Positions 54,340 to 63,655 of a stretch of 64,000 nucleotides of DNA are shown in pieces. The DNA is from Phyllobacterium phragmitis (GTDB lineage Bacteria; Pseudomonadota; Alphaproteobacteria; Rhizobiales; Rhizobiaceae). The notes beneath the pieces were generated by a model that saw only the letters and a list, made by a program, of their open reading frames with translations, was not told the DNA's origin and did no database searches. Each line of letters starts with the position of its first letter. Position 1 is the stretch's first letter. Position numbers and translations under genes: made by a program. The stretch covers positions 248,001 to 312,000 of the forward strand of contig NZ_PVBR01000002.1 of NCBI RefSeq assembly GCF_002980495.1. Direction: 5' to 3'.

Positions 54340-56524
54340 AAGCCGCGCGTTCTTTCGCCCGCCGCGGCAGATGCGCCACGACATTCTCGATCATGCGCAT
54401 GCCGGCATCATGGCCCAGCGTCATAATCGATTCGGGGTGAAACTGCACCGCTGCGATCGGCTCCTTCTTATGTTCGAACGCCATGATGACCCCATCCTCC
54501 GTCTCCGCCGTGACGATGAAATCGTCCGGCAGGCGCACCGGATCGGCAAAGATCGAGTGATAGCGCCCGACCGTCACCTCCTTCGGCAGGCCGGAGAAGA
54601 TGCGGCCCGGCTTGAGCACGCGGATGCGCGAAGGCTTGCCGTGCATCGGCTCGTGCAATTGCCGAAGCGTGCCGCCATAGGCCTCGGCGAGCGCCTGCAG
54701 CCCGAGACAAACGCCGAAGATCGGCAGCTCGCGCTGGCGTGCCTTGGCGATGGTCGCCTTGCAGTCGAAATCCTCCGGCTTGCCGGGACCCGGTGAAAGC
54801 ACGACGAGATCCGGCTTGAGCCGGTCGAACAGTTCCTCCGGCACCGGCGAACGGACCGTCGAGACAGTCGCCCCGGTCTGACGGAAATAATTCGCCAGCG
54901 TATGCACGAAGGAATCCTCGTGATCGACGAGCAGGATCGACAGTCCTTCGCCGACACGCGACGCGGCCCGCGCCTCTCCCGACACATTGGCCTTGTGCGC
55001 ATCGCGAATGGCCGACAGCATGGCGGAAGCCTTCAGCTCCGTCTCCGCCTCTTCCTCCTCGGGAATGGAATCGTAAAGAAGCGTCGCGCCGGCGCGCACC
55101 TCGGCGATACCGTCCTTGATGCGGATGGTGCGCAGCGTCAGGCCGGTGTTCATGTCGCCGTTGAAATGCACCATTCCGATCGCGCCGCCATACCAGGCGC
55201 GTGGGCTCTTCTCGTTTTCCTCGATGAAACGCATCGCCCAGAGTTTCGGCGCGCCCGTCACCGTCACGGCCCAGGCATGGCTGAGGAAGCCGTCGAACGC
55301 GTCCATCCCCTCGCGCAACCGCCCCTCGATATGATCGACGGTGTGGATGAGCCGCGAATACATCTCGATCTGCCGCCGCCCGATGACGCGCACCGAACCC
55401 GGCTCGCACACTCGGCTCTTGTCGTTGCGGTCGACATCCGAGCACATGGTCAGCTCGGATTCGTCCTTCTTCGAGTTCAGCAGCTTGAGGATCTGTTCCG
55501 AATCCGAGATCGCATCGTCGCCGCGCTTGATCGTGCCGGAGATCGGGCAGGTCTCGATCCGCCGGCCATTGACCCGCACGAACATCTCCGGCGACGCGCC
55601 GACCAGATATTCACCTTGTCCGAGATTGATGAAGAAGGAATAGGGCGACGGATTGATCGCCTTCAACCGGCGCGCAATCTCCGAAGGTTTGGTCTCGCAG
55701 CGCTCATAGAAGATCTGGCCCGGCACCACTTCGAAAAGGTCGCCGCGCTTGAAGCTCTCCTTGGCCTTCTCGACCAACTGCGCGAATTCGCCCGGATTGT
55801 GATCGCCGCGCGACGGGATGCTGGCCGAGGGCTCGAACGGCGCGGCTTTCGTCTCGCGCGACAGCCCTTCCGTGGAGGAACCGCTGAAGGAGAACTCATA
55901 ACGGTCGAACCAGGCCTTGGCCGAATAATGATCGGCGACCAGGATCTCGTCCGGCAGGAACAGCACCAGATCGCGCTGATCGTCGGGACGCTTCAGCTTG
56001 AGGTCGATCGGATCGAACTGAAACGCCAGATCGTAACCGAAGGCGCCATAGAGCCCGAGACTGGCATCGTCCTCGGAGAAGAACAGGCCGACGATGGCGC
56101 GCAGGACCGTGAACACCGAAGGCGCGCGCGACCGCTCCTCCTCGGTGAAATGCCGCTGCGGCTTGGCGATCTCCAGTTCGATCCGCTTTTCCTCCGCCGT
56201 CACCACCGTTACGTCGGCGAGACCCTTCAGAATGCCGAGGATCGGGCGCAGCATCACCACGCCACGCGTGTTGAGCGCCTCGATCTTCATGTGGCGGCCG
56301 CTTGAGGTGATGACCACAGGCGGATCGATGATCGCCGTATCCCAGCGCGTATAGCGGCCCGGATATTCATAATTGGAGGAAAAAACCGCCCCGCGCCGCC
56401 CATCGAGCGCATCGATGCGGGCTTCGATCGCCCCTGCATAGCCAGTCGGAACCCGCGTCCGCGTGATGGCGATACCGCCAGCCGTTACATATTCGTGCAT
56501 TTCGTTTTCGGCAGTCATTGCCAT
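54338..56524 (-). CDS. trpE(G): Fused anthranilate synthase TrpE-TrpG
   Basis: First step of tryptophan synthesis, both subunits in one chain. The 728 residues hold an N-terminal TrpE part (GTIKRGDD near 335, [37 protein letters not shown]) and, after about 530, a GATase1 TrpG part ([15 protein letters not shown] with the nucleophile Cys, and a C-terminal HPESIMT His/Glu pair). This fusion is typical of Rhizobiales. The ATG at 56524 has GGAG nine bases upstream; TTG 56533 and ATG 56518 are alternatives. It lies behind a trpL attenuator. Confidence 0.96.
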
Positions 56525-56576
56525 CGTCCTCAACTCCGTTGCGCTCTAGCCCTGGCGGCTCTGCGGACGGTCAAAC

Positions 56577-56607
56577 AAAAAGGCCGCCCGGAAAATCCGT
56601 TGCGGCC
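56577..56607 (-). terminator. trp attenuator terminator
   Basis: Minus strand: GGCCGC, AA, CGG, ATTTT, CCG, G, GCGGCC, then TTTTT. The GCGGCC just past the trpL stop codon (on the minus strand, near 56643-56650) can pair with the GGCCGC arm and act as antiterminator. Confidence 0.9.
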
Positions 56608-56651
56608 CTGTTCACTTTTGCGCGCGTGCAAAAACGACTGCGTGGCCGCTA

Positions 56652-56699
56652 TTAGCGGACCCACCACCAGCCATTCACGATAATGCGCGCGTTGTTCAT
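56652..56699 (-). CDS. trpL: trp leader peptide with three consecutive Trp codons
   Basis: A 15-residue peptide MNNARIIVNGWWWVR with three Trp codons in a row. It fits the leader peptide of the rhizobial trpE(G) attenuator (in Sinorhizobium a 14-residue peptide of similar form). The TTGCAA-N17-TAACAA promoter lies 8 bases from the ATG and no Shine-Dalgarno is present, so the message is leaderless or nearly so, as in Sinorhizobium. Codons TGG TGG TGG GTC CGC can pair with the following GCGG, the protector fold that competes with the antiterminator. Confidence 0.9.
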   Translation of the reverse strand: MNNARIIVNGWWWVR

Positions 56700-56707
56700 G
56701 GAGGTGA

Positions 56708-56736
56708 TTGTTAGCGTCGAGCCGCGCATCTTGCAA
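56708..56736 (-). promoter_or_regulatory. Promoter of trpL
   Basis: Minus strand: TTGCAA (56736-56731), 17 bases, TAACAA (56713-56708), then TCACCTCC and the ATG. Confidence 0.75.
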
Positions 56737-56793
56737 CCGCAAATCATATGACCTTCAACGGCCCCGGCGAAAAAGGCCCTGAAAAGCGGTCCG

Positions 56794-56935
56794 AAAAAAG
56801 GAAAGTCCGGATCGTGTGGAGCGATCCGGACTTTCATTGCCCGTTCGACGGACAATACCAAGCAGGGCATAAGCGGGGGGACCCTGCCTGATCTCGCCCG
56901 AATATCGGAAATGCCCCATTTGCGATATTCGGATA
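56794..56935 (-). ncRNA. Candidate structured small RNA between putA and trpL
   Basis: Four hairpins in a row on the minus strand. (1) 56932-56898: 10-base-pair stem CCGAATATCG/CGATATTCGG plus an inner AAATG/CATTT. (2) 56887-56862: GCAGGG/CCCTGC with a C-rich loop TCCCCCCGCTTATG. (3) 56856-56836: ATTGTCCGT/ACGGGCAAT, loop CGA. (4) 56835-56801: a perfect 14-base-pair stem GAAAGTCCGGATCG followed by C and six T (56799-56794). It lacks a credible coding frame. No clear promoter was found; the 5' end is a guess. Confidence 0.6.
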
Positions 56936-57007
56936 TATGCAATCATTAGGTGTTAAAATTCATCAAGTACGGTTCATATCTATCGTAGGTTGTATTCCCA
57001 TTCAAGC

Positions 57008-57034
57008 AAAAAAAGCCTCGCCTCCGAAGCTTTT
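57008..57034 (-). terminator. Terminator of putA (bidirectional)
   Basis: AAAAGC/GCTTTT outer pair, TCG/CGA inner pair, with seven T on the minus strand. The stem lies 60 bases past the putA stop codon. Confidence 0.85.
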
Positions 57035-57093
57035 CCACAGAATGGTTAAAACCACAATGATATGTTGCCTTAAAGCAACAACCTATGAGGGCA

Positions 57094-60000
57094 TCAGCCT
57101 TCACCCATGGCGATCAGGCTGGCATTGCCGCCCGCAGCCGCCGTATTGACCGAAACCACCTGTTCCAGCACAAAGCGCGTGAGATAGGTCGGCCCGCCAG
57201 CCTTCGGCCCGGTGCCGGAGAGGCCGGAGCCGCCGAAGGGCTGCGTGCCGACGACCGCGCCGATCGTGTTGCGGTTGACATAGATATTGCCGACATCGAG
57301 ACGGTCCACCGCCTTGGCGACCGTCGCTTCGATGCGCGTGTGCAGGCCGAAGGTCAGGCCGTATCCGGTAGCGGCGATCTGATCGAGCACCCGGTCGAGC
57401 TCTTTAGCCTTCCAGCGCACGACATGAAGAATAGGGCCGAACACTTCGCGCGTCAGCACTTCCGGACGGTCGAGCTCGACGATATGCGGCGCGAAGAAAA
57501 TGCCCTCCTCCGGCGCGGTGCCGGCGAAGCGGACCTTCTGCGTTCTTGTCATTTCGGCGATGTGCTCGGCGAGCATGGCACGCTGCGCCTCGTCGATGAT
57601 AGGGCCGACATCGGTGGACGGCAAGGCGGGATCGCCCATGACAAGCTCCCGCGCAGCACCCTCGATCATCTCCAGCATCGGGTCGGCGATATCCTCCTGC
57701 AGATAGAGGATGCGCAGCGCCGAGCAGCGCTGCCCGGCGGAACGGAAGGCCGACATGATCACATCGTCGGTCACCTGTTCGGCAAGCGCCGTCGCATCGA
57801 CGATCATCGCGTTGAGCCCGCCGGTTTCGGCGATCAACGGCACGATCGGCCCCTTCTTGGCTGCCAGCGCCCGGTTGATCGCCCACGCCGTCTCGGTCGA
57901 ACCGGTGAAGGCGACACCGCCAATGGCCGGGTGCGCAGTGAGTGCCGCACCGACCGCGCCATCGCCCGGCACATAGAGAACGGCATCTTTGGGGATACCC
58001 GCCTCGTGCAGGAGCTTCACCGCCTCGAAGGCCACCAGCGGCGTCTGCTCGGCCGGCTTGGCGATCACCGCATTGCCGGCGGCAAGCGCCGCTGTCACCT
58101 GGCCAAGGAAGATCGCCAGCGGGAAATTCCACGGGCTGATGCAGACGAAGACGCCGCGCCCGCGATGGCGCAGCCGGTCATCCTCACCCGTCGGCCCCGG
58201 CATCACCTGGTCATGGCCGAACTGGCGGCGCGCTTCCGCCGCATAATAGCGGCAGAAATCCACCGCCTCGCGGATTTCGGCAATGCCGTCATCGAGCGTC
58301 TTGCCCGCCTCGCGCGAAAGCAGATCGAGCAGCCTGTCGCGGTTCTTCTCCAGGAGATCGCTGGCGCGTTCGAGCGCCACGGCACGGGTCTCGACCGCCA
58401 CACGCGACCAGGCGACAAAGCCCTTGCGAGCGATCTCGACCGCCCGCCCCGCCTCTTCCGCGCTAGCCGCGACGACGCTGCCGACAGGCGCACCATCGAC
58501 AGGCGAAAGCACTGGCTCCGCCCTGCCCGAAACCTTGATGCCGGGGATGAGCGGCGACGCATCGACATTGCCACGGGCAGACGCCATGCCGCTAAGGAGA
58601 CCGGCAAGCGCCTCACGATCGCCGAACTCAACACCGGCCGAATTGCGCCTTCTGCCGTAGAGGTCGCGCGGCAGCGGGATGGCCGGATGGCGATAGCCCT
58701 TGCCGTCCTCAAGCTTTTGCGCCGGACGCACCAGAAGATCGGAGATCGGCACGCTCTCGTCGCCCACCACGGAGACGAAAGACGAATTGGCGCCGTTTTC
58801 CAGAAGCCGGCGCACGAGATAGGCGAGCAGGTCGCGGTAGCCGCCGACCGGCGCATAGATGCGGCAGGCGATCTTCTCGCCCTTCTCGGTAATCTGCTTG
58901 AAAAGGCTTTCGCCCATGCCGTGCAGGCGCTGGAACTCAAAGCCGCTCCGGTCAGTGCCCGCCATATCCAGGATGGCGGCGACCGTCAGCGCATTATGCG
59001 TGGCGAACTGCGGAAAGATGCGCGGCCGCGCCGCAAGCATCCGCTGCGCGCAGGCGAGATAGGAGACATCCGTCGCCGGCTTGCGGGTGAAGACGGGATA
59101 ATCCGCAAGCCCGCGCTCCTGCGCGCGCTTCACTTCCGTGTCCCAATAGGCGCCCTTGACGAGGCGCACCATCATGCGTCGCCCGAACCGCCCGGCAAGC
59201 GCATCGATATGCTCGATGACGGCGAGCGCCCGCTTCTGATAGGCCTGGATGGCGAGGCCGAAACCGTCCCAGCCGTCGAGCGAGGGATCGGCAAACACCC
59301 GGTCGATCACATCGAGCGAAAGTTCCAGGCGATCCGCCTCCTCCGCATCGATGGTGAAATTGAGATCATAGGCTTTCGCCTTCTGCGCGAGCGCCAGCAC
59401 ATCGGGCACCAGCTCTTCCAGCACCTCATCGCGATGCGTGGCGAGATACCGCGGATGCAGCGCCGAAAGCTTGACCGAGATGCCCATGCGGTCCGGCAAA
59501 GGCTTGTTGCCCGTCGCCCGGCCGATGGCGTCGATCGCATCGGCGTAGGATTTGTAATAGCGTTTCGCGTCGGCGCTCGTCCGCGCGCCTTCGCCCAGCA
59601 TGTCGAAAGAATGGCGATAGCCCTTGGCCTCGTTCGTGCGCGCCCGCTTCAATGCCTCGCCGATGGTTTCGCCCAAAACGAAATGATGACCGAGAAACCG
59701 CATCGCCTGCTTGGTCGCGGTGCGCACCGTCGGCAGGCCGACGCGCTTAACCAGCACCGAGACGACGCCCTCCGGCGTCTCGCCCGGCTTGATCACCTTG
59801 GCGGACAAGCCCAGCGCCCAGGCGGAGGCCGAGACGAACCAGGTGTCGCCATGCCCCTCATGCTCGGACCAGTGGCCCTGCTTCAGCTTGTCCTCGATCA
59901 GCTTGTCCTGCGTCGCCGCGTCAGGCACCCGCAAAAGCGCCTCCGCCAGCACCATCAAGGCCAGCCCCTCGCGCGTCGAAAGCCCGTATTCGCGCAGGAA

Positions 60001-61248: not shown

Positions 61249-62661
61249 TTACCGTCCCCACGACATCAGCAGCGCCCAGGCAATTCCGAAAACCGCTGAT
61301 AATAGGAGCGTAGTGATCACGGTCATCCTGAAATGGAAAATGGCGAGTGATGCCAATATTGTCAGCACGAGCGACGGCCAGACAATTGAACTGATGACCG
61401 GCACATTCATCGACCATAGGCCCCATGAGACGGTCCACATCTCGGTGAACAGCACATGCAACCCAAACCAGATGGCCAAGTTGAGGATCACGCCCACGAC
61501 CGCTGCTGTGATGGCCGACATTGCTCCTGCCAGAGCGGCATTGCCGCGCATGCTCTCGATGAATGGTGCTCCCAGGAATATCCAAAGGAAGCTCGGCAGA
61601 AATGTCACCCAGGTGGTCAATATCGCAGCGAGTGTTGCCGTCACCAGCGGATTGAGCACTCCCGGATCGCGATATCCCGCGAGAAAGCCGACGAACTGTG
61701 TAACCATGATCAGGGGGCCGGGTGTGGTTTCAGCCATGCCAAGCCCATCCAGCATCTCGTGCGGTTGCAGCCAACCGAAATGCTGGACCGCCTCCTGAGC
61801 AACGTAGGCAAGGACAGCATAGGCGCCGCCAAACGTGACCACGGCCATCTGGCTGAAGAAGACACCGATCTTGGCAAAAACGTTCGTTGGCCCGAGTGTC
61901 AGCAAGATAGCGATGACGGGGAGGAACCAGAGAGCGGCCAGAATAGCCGAAATCCTTATGGACCAGGCCAGGTTTGGGCGGGCGTGAACAGGAATATCCG
62001 CTCCAAGAAGCGAATCCCGGTCTTCCAGTATCTTTCCTGATTGAGCTTTGTGACCGCCGCCCACCTTGAAAGCCGCAATGCCCGCCCTGCCACCGAGGTA
62101 GCCGATCACGCCGGTTGCGATGATGATGAACGGAAAGGGGATCTGGAGGAAGAAGATGGCGATGAATGCCGCAGCGGCGATAGCGACCATCACCCTGTTC
62201 TTCAGGGCGCGGCTGCCGATACGGAAGACCGCCTGCAACACAACGGCCAGGACCGCGCATTTCAAACCGAAGAACATGCCTTCGATGAAGGTGACATTGC
62301 CGAAAAGCACATAGATGTAGCTAAGCGCGAGGATCGAAAGAAACCCCGGCAGGACAAACAGGATACCGGCGATCACGCCGCCCAATGTCCTGTTGAGCAA
62401 CCAGCCGATGTAGATGGCAAGCTGGTGGGCTTCCGGTCCGGGCAGAAGCATGCAGTAGTTGAGCGCATGCAGGAACCGGTGCTCTCCGATCCATCGTTTC
62501 TCGTCAACCAGGATGCGATGCATTACCGCGATCTGCCCTGCGGGACCGCCAAAACTGAGGGCGGCGACCCGAATCCAGACTCTTATGGCTTCAGACAAGG
62601 GGATGATATCGGCCGCCCTCCCGCGTCTGGCGCTCAACGTGCCTTTGGCGAGGTCGGCCAT
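61249..62661 (-). CDS. chrA: Chromate efflux transporter ChrA (long chain)
   Basis: A 470-residue proton-driven exporter of the CHR family. Two homologous halves are visible: FGGPAGQIAVMHR in the first, FGGAYAVLAYVAQEAV in the second; each begins with a helix bearing the conserved FGG/P. The first half has LLPGPEAHQLAIYIG, the second TTPGPLIMVTQFVG. It exports chromate or sulfate-like oxyanions. It follows chrB by five bases in an operon chrB-chrA. Confidence 0.94.
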   Translation of the reverse strand: MADLAKGTLSARRGRAADIIPLSEAIRVWIRVAALSFGGPAGQIAVMHRILVDEKRWIGEHRFLHALNYCMLLPGPEAHQLAIYIGWLLNRTLGGVIAGILFVLPGFLSILALSYIYVLFGNVTFIEGMFFGLKCAVLAVVLQAVFRIGSRALKNRVMVAIAAAAFIAIFFLQIPFPFIIIATGVIGYLGGRAGIAAFKVGGGHKAQSGKILEDRDSLLGADIPVHARPNLAWSIRISAILAALWFLPVIAILLTLGPTNVFAKIGVFFSQMAVVTFGGAYAVLAYVAQEAVQHFGWLQPHEMLDGLGMAETTPGPLIMVTQFVGFLAGYRDPGVLNPLVTATLAAILTTWVTFLPSFLWIFLGAPFIESMRGNAALAGAMSAITAAVVGVILNLAIWFGLHVLFTEMWTVSWGLWSMNVPVISSIVWPSLVLTILASLAIFHFRMTVITTLLLSAVFGIAWALLMSWGR

Positions 62662-62666
62662 TGTTC

Positions 62667-63479
62667 TTACCCCTTCCTCGGGTTCGGCCAGTTATGTGTC
62701 TCGTCAGCCGCGTCACGGCACCATCTATAGAACGCATCGTAGAGCGTCAGTCCGGCGTCCAATTGTTCGAGATCGTCGTTGAACATGCGGGAGAGCCCAA
62801 GTGATGCGGCCAGCAGGCCAGGCACTTCCGGCGCAAGCTCGGGCCGCGCAGTATCCGCTCCTCGCACGATCGTGGCGAGATGCAGGAGTGGTTCGGATTT
62901 GAGGGCGAACTCCTCCACCATGACATCGAAGGTGCAAAGCTCTCCTCGATGGCTCCAGAATACATCGTCGATGTCAAATGGCGTTGCATTGAAGCGGTCC
63001 GCAACGGCGGGCACGTCACGGGCGGGAACGTAGAGGAAGACAGCGAAGGGATCGATGAAGCGGCGGATAAGCCACGGGCATGCAATCCGATCTATCTTCG
63101 GGCGAGCACGTGTCACCCAGACCGTCCGTCTTCGCGCATCACGCGGCGGGAGTTTCTCATTGGGAACCAGCATTCCCCTTGCCGCTTTCCAGGCTTCAAA
63201 ACCGCCCTCTAGCACCTCTGACGGTGTTCGTTCGTGGCGAAGATGCGCCGCAACACCGTGGCTGAGTTTCTGTCCTTTCTGGCAGATAAGGATCGACGGA
63301 CCTATCACGTCCGATCTCCACACCTCCACCTCGCGGTAATCGCGCTTGATCGAGCCGGGAATGATCCTGGGATCGCTGGCAAAATCATCATCAGTGCGCA
63401 CATCGATAAGAATCGGCGCGCTCGGCGTCCCAATGATACGATTTAATTTATCAGAAGTAATTTCGAGAAATGACGGCAT
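62667..63479 (-). CDS. chrB: ChrB-domain protein with N-terminal rhodanese
   Basis: A 270-residue two-domain protein. Residues about 1-105 are a rhodanese domain with the active-site loop CQKGQKLSHGVAA; from about 115 a ChrB C-terminal domain begins with VWVTRARPKIDRIACPWLIRRFIDP and includes FDIDDVFWSHRGELCTFDV. ChrB homologues act as chromate sensors or regulators upstream of chrA. The rhodanese front suggests sulfur or thiol chemistry. It is five bases upstream of chrA. Confidence 0.93.
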   Translation of the reverse strand: MPSFLEITSDKLNRIIGTPSAPILIDVRTDDDFASDPRIIPGSIKRDYREVEVWRSDVIGPSILICQKGQKLSHGVAAHLRHERTPSEVLEGGFEAWKAARGMLVPNEKLPPRDARRRTVWVTRARPKIDRIACPWLIRRFIDPFAVFLYVPARDVPAVADRFNATPFDIDDVFWSHRGELCTFDVMVEEFALKSEPLLHLATIVRGADTARPELAPEVPGLLAASLGLSRMFNDDLEQLDAGLTLYDAFYRWCRDAADETHNWPNPRKG

Positions 63480-63655
63480 AACGCGTCCCTCCGGTTGACT
63501 CGGGTTCCAAGGACGCGATTCTTCAGCCGTGGCCTCGTGGGGTGATCGCTACCCCATAGTGGGATTTTGCAGCAGCTAAAGCGGATGTCAATATCCTTCG
63601 TCAAGTGTCACAAATGACTGTCCGTGGCACGGCTCCGCCGTTCGCTTCCTCTCCT

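Follow-up and report, generated by a model that had tools for sequence, protein, structure and literature searches.

A conserved four-hairpin RNA between putA and the trp leader of Phyllobacterium phragmitis: a candidate small RNA family with a near-constant hairpin loop

The minus strand between putA and the trp leader of the window (the whole 64,000-nucleotide stretch of DNA that was analysed) carries four successive hairpins at 56794–56935. They had been pointed out in a preliminary description made from the letters alone, and refolding reproduced them. The same description placed them between a putA terminator and the trpL promoter. By eye, a hairpin with a T run does follow putA at approximately 57034–57008, but the terminator scan did not list that hairpin. 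On the other side, the segment 56577–56680 matches both RcsR1 and Trp_leader, each under its curated cut-off (Rfam 15). The features of the locus are as follows.

56977–57005, minus strand: promoter-like box, TTGAAT (57005–57000), 17 nt, TAGATA (56982–56977); same spacing and place in the genus members, by eye.
56794–56970, minus strand: proposed small RNA of about 177 nt, with a deduced 5′ end; fold z −5.65; kept in six genus members.
56934–56970, minus strand: 5′ leader, mostly unpaired; conserved within the genus and recognisable in genus g17.
56897–56933, minus strand: hairpin 1 (H1), variable in sequence and conserved in pairing; in the unfitted alignment, both partners differ in 3 of 9 pairs.
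56857–56892, minus strand: hairpin 2 (H2), bearing the conserved loop; 0 of 11 pairs changed on both sides in the unfitted alignment.
56871–56878, minus strand: loop core CCCCGCUU, putative contact site; the 8-mer occurs in 32 of 35 members.
56836–56856, minus strand: hairpin 3 (H3), variable in sequence; seen in fold and covariation.
56794–56835, minus strand: hairpin 4 (H4, stem-loop 56835–56801) with a six-T tail, an intrinsic terminator.
56577–56680, minus strand: neighbouring trp leader (RcsR1-like), outside the RNA; Rfam RF02552 at 32.9 bits, cut-off 60.

Elsewhere in the window, a chrB-a RNA motif (RF03078) was found on the minus strand at 63477–63560 with 71.6 bits, above its cut-off, near frame 61249–62661, which we take to be a chromate transporter.

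The region 56790–56940 has a folding energy of −71.7 kcal/mol, compared to −46.3 (s.d. 3.75) in 200 dinucleotide shuffles, none of which was as good (z −6.77). H4 consists of a perfect 14-bp stem and a 7-nt loop, followed by C and six T at 56799–56794, just as the preliminary description had it, and it is the sole terminator-like site listed by a scan of 56500–57150, where shuffles average 0.9. No reading frame is common to the six genus members. In the alignment of 34 members, G-U cells (133) outnumber A-C cells (28), and the minus strand is therefore favoured as the RNA strand. In general, the region presents itself as a conserved, non-coding and structured RNA.

The 5′ end, on the other hand, had been expected near 56935, and a position farther upstream is more likely. 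In the six genus genomes, conservation runs upstream of H1 through the leader to a TTGNNN-17-TANNNN box, which by eye lies just after the putA-ending hairpin. Because of this conserved leader and the promoter-like box at 57005–56977, transcription would more probably start near 56970, giving an RNA of about 177 nt. In the most distant members, H1 lies almost directly behind the −10 box. A consensus promoter scan listed nothing at 57005–56977, and the boxes of the genus members do not outscore Markov shuffles. Directly preceding the RNA in three relatives are TTGACA-17-TATAAG (L200), TTGACA-17-TATAAA (L202) and TTGACA-17-TAAAAT (L204), with 11/12 matches; 0, 1 and 1 of 100 shuffles, respectively, were as good. 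Averaged over the 35 members, the best box scores 8.6, compared to 7.6 in shuffles. As regards a transcription unit of its own, then, the terminator is clear, and the promoter is clear in several relatives and weak in the genus of the window. The sigma-EcfG motif, GGAA(C/T)-15 to 19-CGTT, was absent within 200 nt in all six genus members.

Covariation was measured on two kinds of alignment. Six members were aligned with MAFFT without fitting to the structure; this unfitted alignment scores 0.235 for covariation, compared to 0.190 in shuffles, of which 1 in 500 came as high. Both partners differ in 6 of its 42 pairs. H2 contributes none of the six, and 44 of the 500 shuffles attain the same count. 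When 34 members are aligned to the covariance model R2 (see below), 89.8% of the cells pair, every one of the 42 pairs varies on both sides, and covariation scores 0.643, compared to 0.238 in shuffles (0 of 500 as high) and at most 0.149 for slid pairings; fitting to the structure inflates the size of this effect. On average, two members are 48% identical, and the window shares 39–59% with members outside its genus. A MAFFT alignment of distant members (A6) was poor and was excluded, and A8 took the place of A7, in which L112 was misaligned in H2. A9 contains two antisense rows, which the 35-member counts leave out, and one misaligned row, L227, which they keep; A10 omits all three. All four hairpins covary and, judged from these comparisons, the RNA is kept as a structured RNA.

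The covariance search that the preliminary description had proposed was run, and its outcome was positive. Model R1, built on the six genus members, gave full-length matches in other genera; within approximately 1.5 kb of the 30 loci with the best trp-leader matches, it gave none. Model R2, built on 15 sequences from 14 genomes, was searched over 394 genomes of the family; in the window, itself a training member, it matches 56793–56945 with 129 bits. At E ≤ 1e-4, 47 of the 394 genomes matched. Of these, 30 genomes from 14 genera reach at least 41.8 bits, with 32 copies (two each in G010 and G100); 14 of these 30 supplied sequences to R2 and match by construction, and 16 are new. The other 17 genomes score 32.9–39.0 bits. 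Ten of them were examined for place: G358 and G068 are syntenic and eight are not, one of the eight (G297) lying on a contig of just 4.9 kb. Since the weak matches are mostly non-syntenic, scores above approximately 41 bits look reliable, and lower ones need synteny. Terminator-like hairpins by themselves yield many weak matches to the model. In G021, a 28-bit match lies 509 nt before trpE. Among 199 genomes of the order, nine matched, namely, G000, G119 and seven genomes of other families at 33.5–39.0 bits; three of these seven were examined, and none was syntenic. In G010 and G100, the RNA copies stand in tandem (L162 5924–6362 and L199 7308–7679), with different sequences, each with a promoter-like box.

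Sixteen further genomes were reached via named loci. R2 was strong in three of them (Brucella endophytica, Phyllobacterium salinisoli and a metagenome-assembled genome labelled Rhodobacteraceae), all of species already counted within the 30, weak in three (29.8–31.9 bits) and without a match in ten. Ten of the genomes other than the three strong ones were examined upstream of trpE: the loop core was absent from the 1.5 kb there in nine, and Aurantimonas has one loose match. Those examined include Phyllobacterium sp. KW56, Phyllobacterium sp. 2063 and P. myrsinacearum; in KW56, another kind of gene ends just before the trp promoter, leaving no room for the RNA. The distribution is patchy; three named Phyllobacterium genomes showed no such RNA ahead of trpE, so that in some lineages it appears to be dispensable. 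One of the genera that carry it, g115, is likely Bartonella, because G119 and G383 (the two tested of the five trpE-less g115 genomes G119, G195, G254, G383 and G412) contain several Bep C-terminal (BID) domains; no BID domain was found in G307 or G347, also of g115.

The loop of H2 is the part that changes least. The preliminary description had noted an exposed, C-rich loop 2 with the stretch TCCCCCC. The exposed loop is indeed there (CCCCCCGCUUAU at 56880–56869) and is C-rich, but the conserved element is more specific and reads CCC(C/U)GC(U/C)(U/A). This 8-mer lies in the H2 loop in 31 of the 32 members that have it, and elsewhere in L209; L169, L213 and L227 are without the full core. The H2 stem changes freely, and the loop is near-constant, part of this constancy having been selected by the search, because R2 was trained on 15 of these sequences. 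The matched loop core has a mean unpaired probability of 0.86, compared to 0.39 for the whole RNA; in two g17 members, most of it is predicted to pair (0.31 and 0.38). In 69,385 flanking bases, the pattern occurs nine times.

The preliminary description had recognised no known sRNA family here, and no Rfam 15 family matched the RNA at the curated threshold in the window or in L200, L203 and L204. At looser thresholds, Thr_leader (27.4 bits, L106) and anti-hemB (25.1 bits, L103) appeared, both far under their cut-offs. The RcsR1/trp leader is a neighbour on the same strand that lies downstream of the RNA with a match of its own; RF02552 matches 56577–56680 and not 56794–56970. In L112, BASRCI153, a Brucella sRNA family, gave a weak match on the plus strand at 685–780 (30.8 bits, cut-off 137), approximately 700 nt upstream of the RNA in G319.

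Comparison with described sRNAs was made on loop, hairpin number and place. GsrN of Caulobacter is, like the RNA here, small and intergenic with an exposed C-rich loop; in GsrN, this loop is the most conserved part and base-pairs with katG mRNA at a G-rich stretch, but GsrN has a sigma-EcfG promoter and usually lies near stress-response genes, whereas the RNA here lies beside trp (PMC5869019). NfeR1/alpha-r14 is likewise a Rhizobiales sRNA with unpaired C-containing loops; it has its own sigma-70 promoter, and its anti-SD loops silence several mRNAs, but its hairpins number three and each loop carries the anti-SD motif, whereas here there are four hairpins and a C-rich loop in H2 only (PMC7143759). 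EcpR1/SmelC291 shares with the RNA a conserved GC-rich loop in a Rhizobiales sRNA, and EcpR1 has several targets; its loop, however, is UCCGCCGCAUCU, in the first of two hairpins, and its gene lies between divK-pleD and rpmG (PMC4414408), whereas the RNA here has CCCCCCGCUUAU, four hairpins and another place. The Brt RNAs of Bartonella are also structured, intergenic and present in several copies; they are 194–203 nt long and lie 10–18 nt upstream of HTH genes (PMC5387305), whereas in the five g115 genomes without trpE, the match to the cation efflux gene starts 407–591 nt downstream of the RNA, only query proteins having been placed on that stretch. On the features tested, the RNA belongs neither to GsrN nor to NfeR1; its loop, its number of hairpins or its place rules out EcpR1, NfeR1, Brt and the trp leader.

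It is possible, although doubtful, that the RNA is real but already listed, the Bartonella member being BbsR9 of B. bacilliformis, or the family including MH_s11 of Mesorhizobium huakuii. This concerns novelty, is compatible with the function favoured below and is weighed apart from the explanations discussed there. BbsR9 resembles the RNA in being intergenic and conserved in Bartonella, with a sigma-70 promoter, a terminator and GC-rich pairing regions (PMC7717549), but its target nuoF showed, by eye, no common loop match in the five trpE-less g115 genomes. MH_s11 is a 165-nt RNA with homologs in Bartonella, but it sits between a plus-strand and a minus-strand gene, unlike the RNA here. In the open-licence PMC literature, to which supplements and most subscription papers do not belong, no sRNA upstream of trpE was recognised in this group. 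The RNA may thus form a new sRNA family, compared with BbsR9 and MH_s11 by description only, single members of which may already stand in published lists.

Based on place, covariation, loop, terminator, retention without trpE and the strong sigma-70-like boxes of relatives, the earlier suggestion of a separate small-RNA gene is well supported at the sequence level. We consider it fairly probable that the gene encodes an autonomous, trans-acting sRNA that pairs through the H2 loop. An RNA of approximately 150–180 nt would be transcribed from its own sigma-70 promoter, and H2 would offer the loop CCC(C/U)GC(U/C)(U/A) for pairing with G-rich sites of several mRNAs. Pairing would probably occur at or near ribosome-binding sites, as the preliminary description had supposed and as we infer by analogy with the sRNAs above, and would alter the translation or stability of the mRNAs. 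H1 and H3 would serve as scaffold and protection, and H4 with its U tail would act as the terminator and might also be a site for Hfq. A second contact may be made by the extra unpaired leader of g17 and the window's genus.

A search for targets in ten small genomes with AGCRGGG shortly before ATG returned 30 to 189 matches per genome, and the reversed-pattern control is a poor one, as the purine bias is reversed too. From the matches listed, ten sites common to G119 and G383 were picked by eye, and 5 of the 10 pairs have a frame of more than 60 aa from that ATG in at least one genome. One of these five, presumably a pyruvate dehydrogenase E2-like frame, resembles a gene start in both G119 and G383; it was rejected as a target on account of an A where the loop of G119 and G383 needs a pairing partner for G.

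A rather unlikely alternative is that the loop is a protein-binding site, through which the RNA titrates or guides a regulator or an RNA chaperone with no mRNA pairing. A constant loop is predicted equally by this reading, the tandem arrangement in G010 and G100 would be in keeping with titration, and no conserved mRNA partner was found, the target search being too weak to count as a negative. However, GsrN provides a precedent for a C-rich loop pairing with G-rich mRNA, and NfeR1 one for anti-SD loops.

The place of the RNA bears on a further alternative, in which it belongs to the trp operon as a cis element, that is, an extra leader, attenuator or insulator before trpL. As shown by comparison of the loci, the ancestral place of the RNA gene is upstream of trpL-trpE. 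In 23 of the 30 genomes, trpE lies downstream on the same strand (in one of these, G104, with the trpG part alone). The six genus genomes among the 23 each also have putA upstream of the RNA, and in the 17 non-genus genomes, the TrpE match is 74 to 2081 nt away. This arrangement speaks for a cis role, but the RNA has its own terminator ahead of the trp promoter, and in g22 and g26, trpE is 1.6–2.1 kb away. In addition, six small genomes without trpE retain the RNA, and the gene downstream of it, approximately 270–590 nt away, is the cation efflux gene found behind trpE in other genomes. A whole-genome TrpE search of G119, G195, G254, G383, G412 and G010 gave only remote matches of at most 48 bits. 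Because the RNA is kept in these six genomes, it is not a trp leader, and a role in cis is very improbable. In G115 (L026), the RNA lies too near the contig end, and the upstream region has a relative of the gene found upstream of the RNA in g22.

Two side observations belong to this neighbourhood. In the 1.4-Mb genome G104 (L210), the TrpE query matches over the trpG part only (54%) at a distance of 74 nt from the RNA, and a remote trpE-like match lies elsewhere in the genome; the trp operon may be in the course of being dismantled there. In three genus members, inverted repeats stand between the RNA and the trp leader and differ from locus to locus: those at approximately 1280–1380 in L002 are of the GGGATGACGG type, at approximately 1798–1890 in L005 of the GGCGAGGAT type and at approximately 11574–11690 in L014 of the CATCTCCCC type. 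The L014 type recurs elsewhere in the L014 locus, and these repeats are perhaps small mobile palindromes.

That the locus is a terminator alone with chance hairpins around it is hardly credible, for although terminator-like hairpins do attract weak model matches, hairpins 1–3 covary as well and full-length matches occupy the same place in 14 genera.

The autonomous sRNA that pairs through its H2 loop can also be put in a wider frame. Whether it represents an old sRNA family that has so far been undescribed is, in our judgement, an evenly poised question; such a family would belong to that part of the Rhizobiaceae (as defined by GTDB) in which this genus and Bartonella-like bacteria are placed, would lie beside trp, would act as a broad post-transcriptional regulator via a near-constant 8-nt loop and would have been kept through genome reduction after the loss of trp. 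The result would be an sRNA family that is defined and can be aligned, extends from 5-Mb genomes to reduced ones of 1.4 Mb and offers a contact loop open to testing. The small AT-rich genomes would be a good setting for finding the targets of the RNA, and its survival after the loss of the neighbouring operon would be a clean case of a function independent of place.
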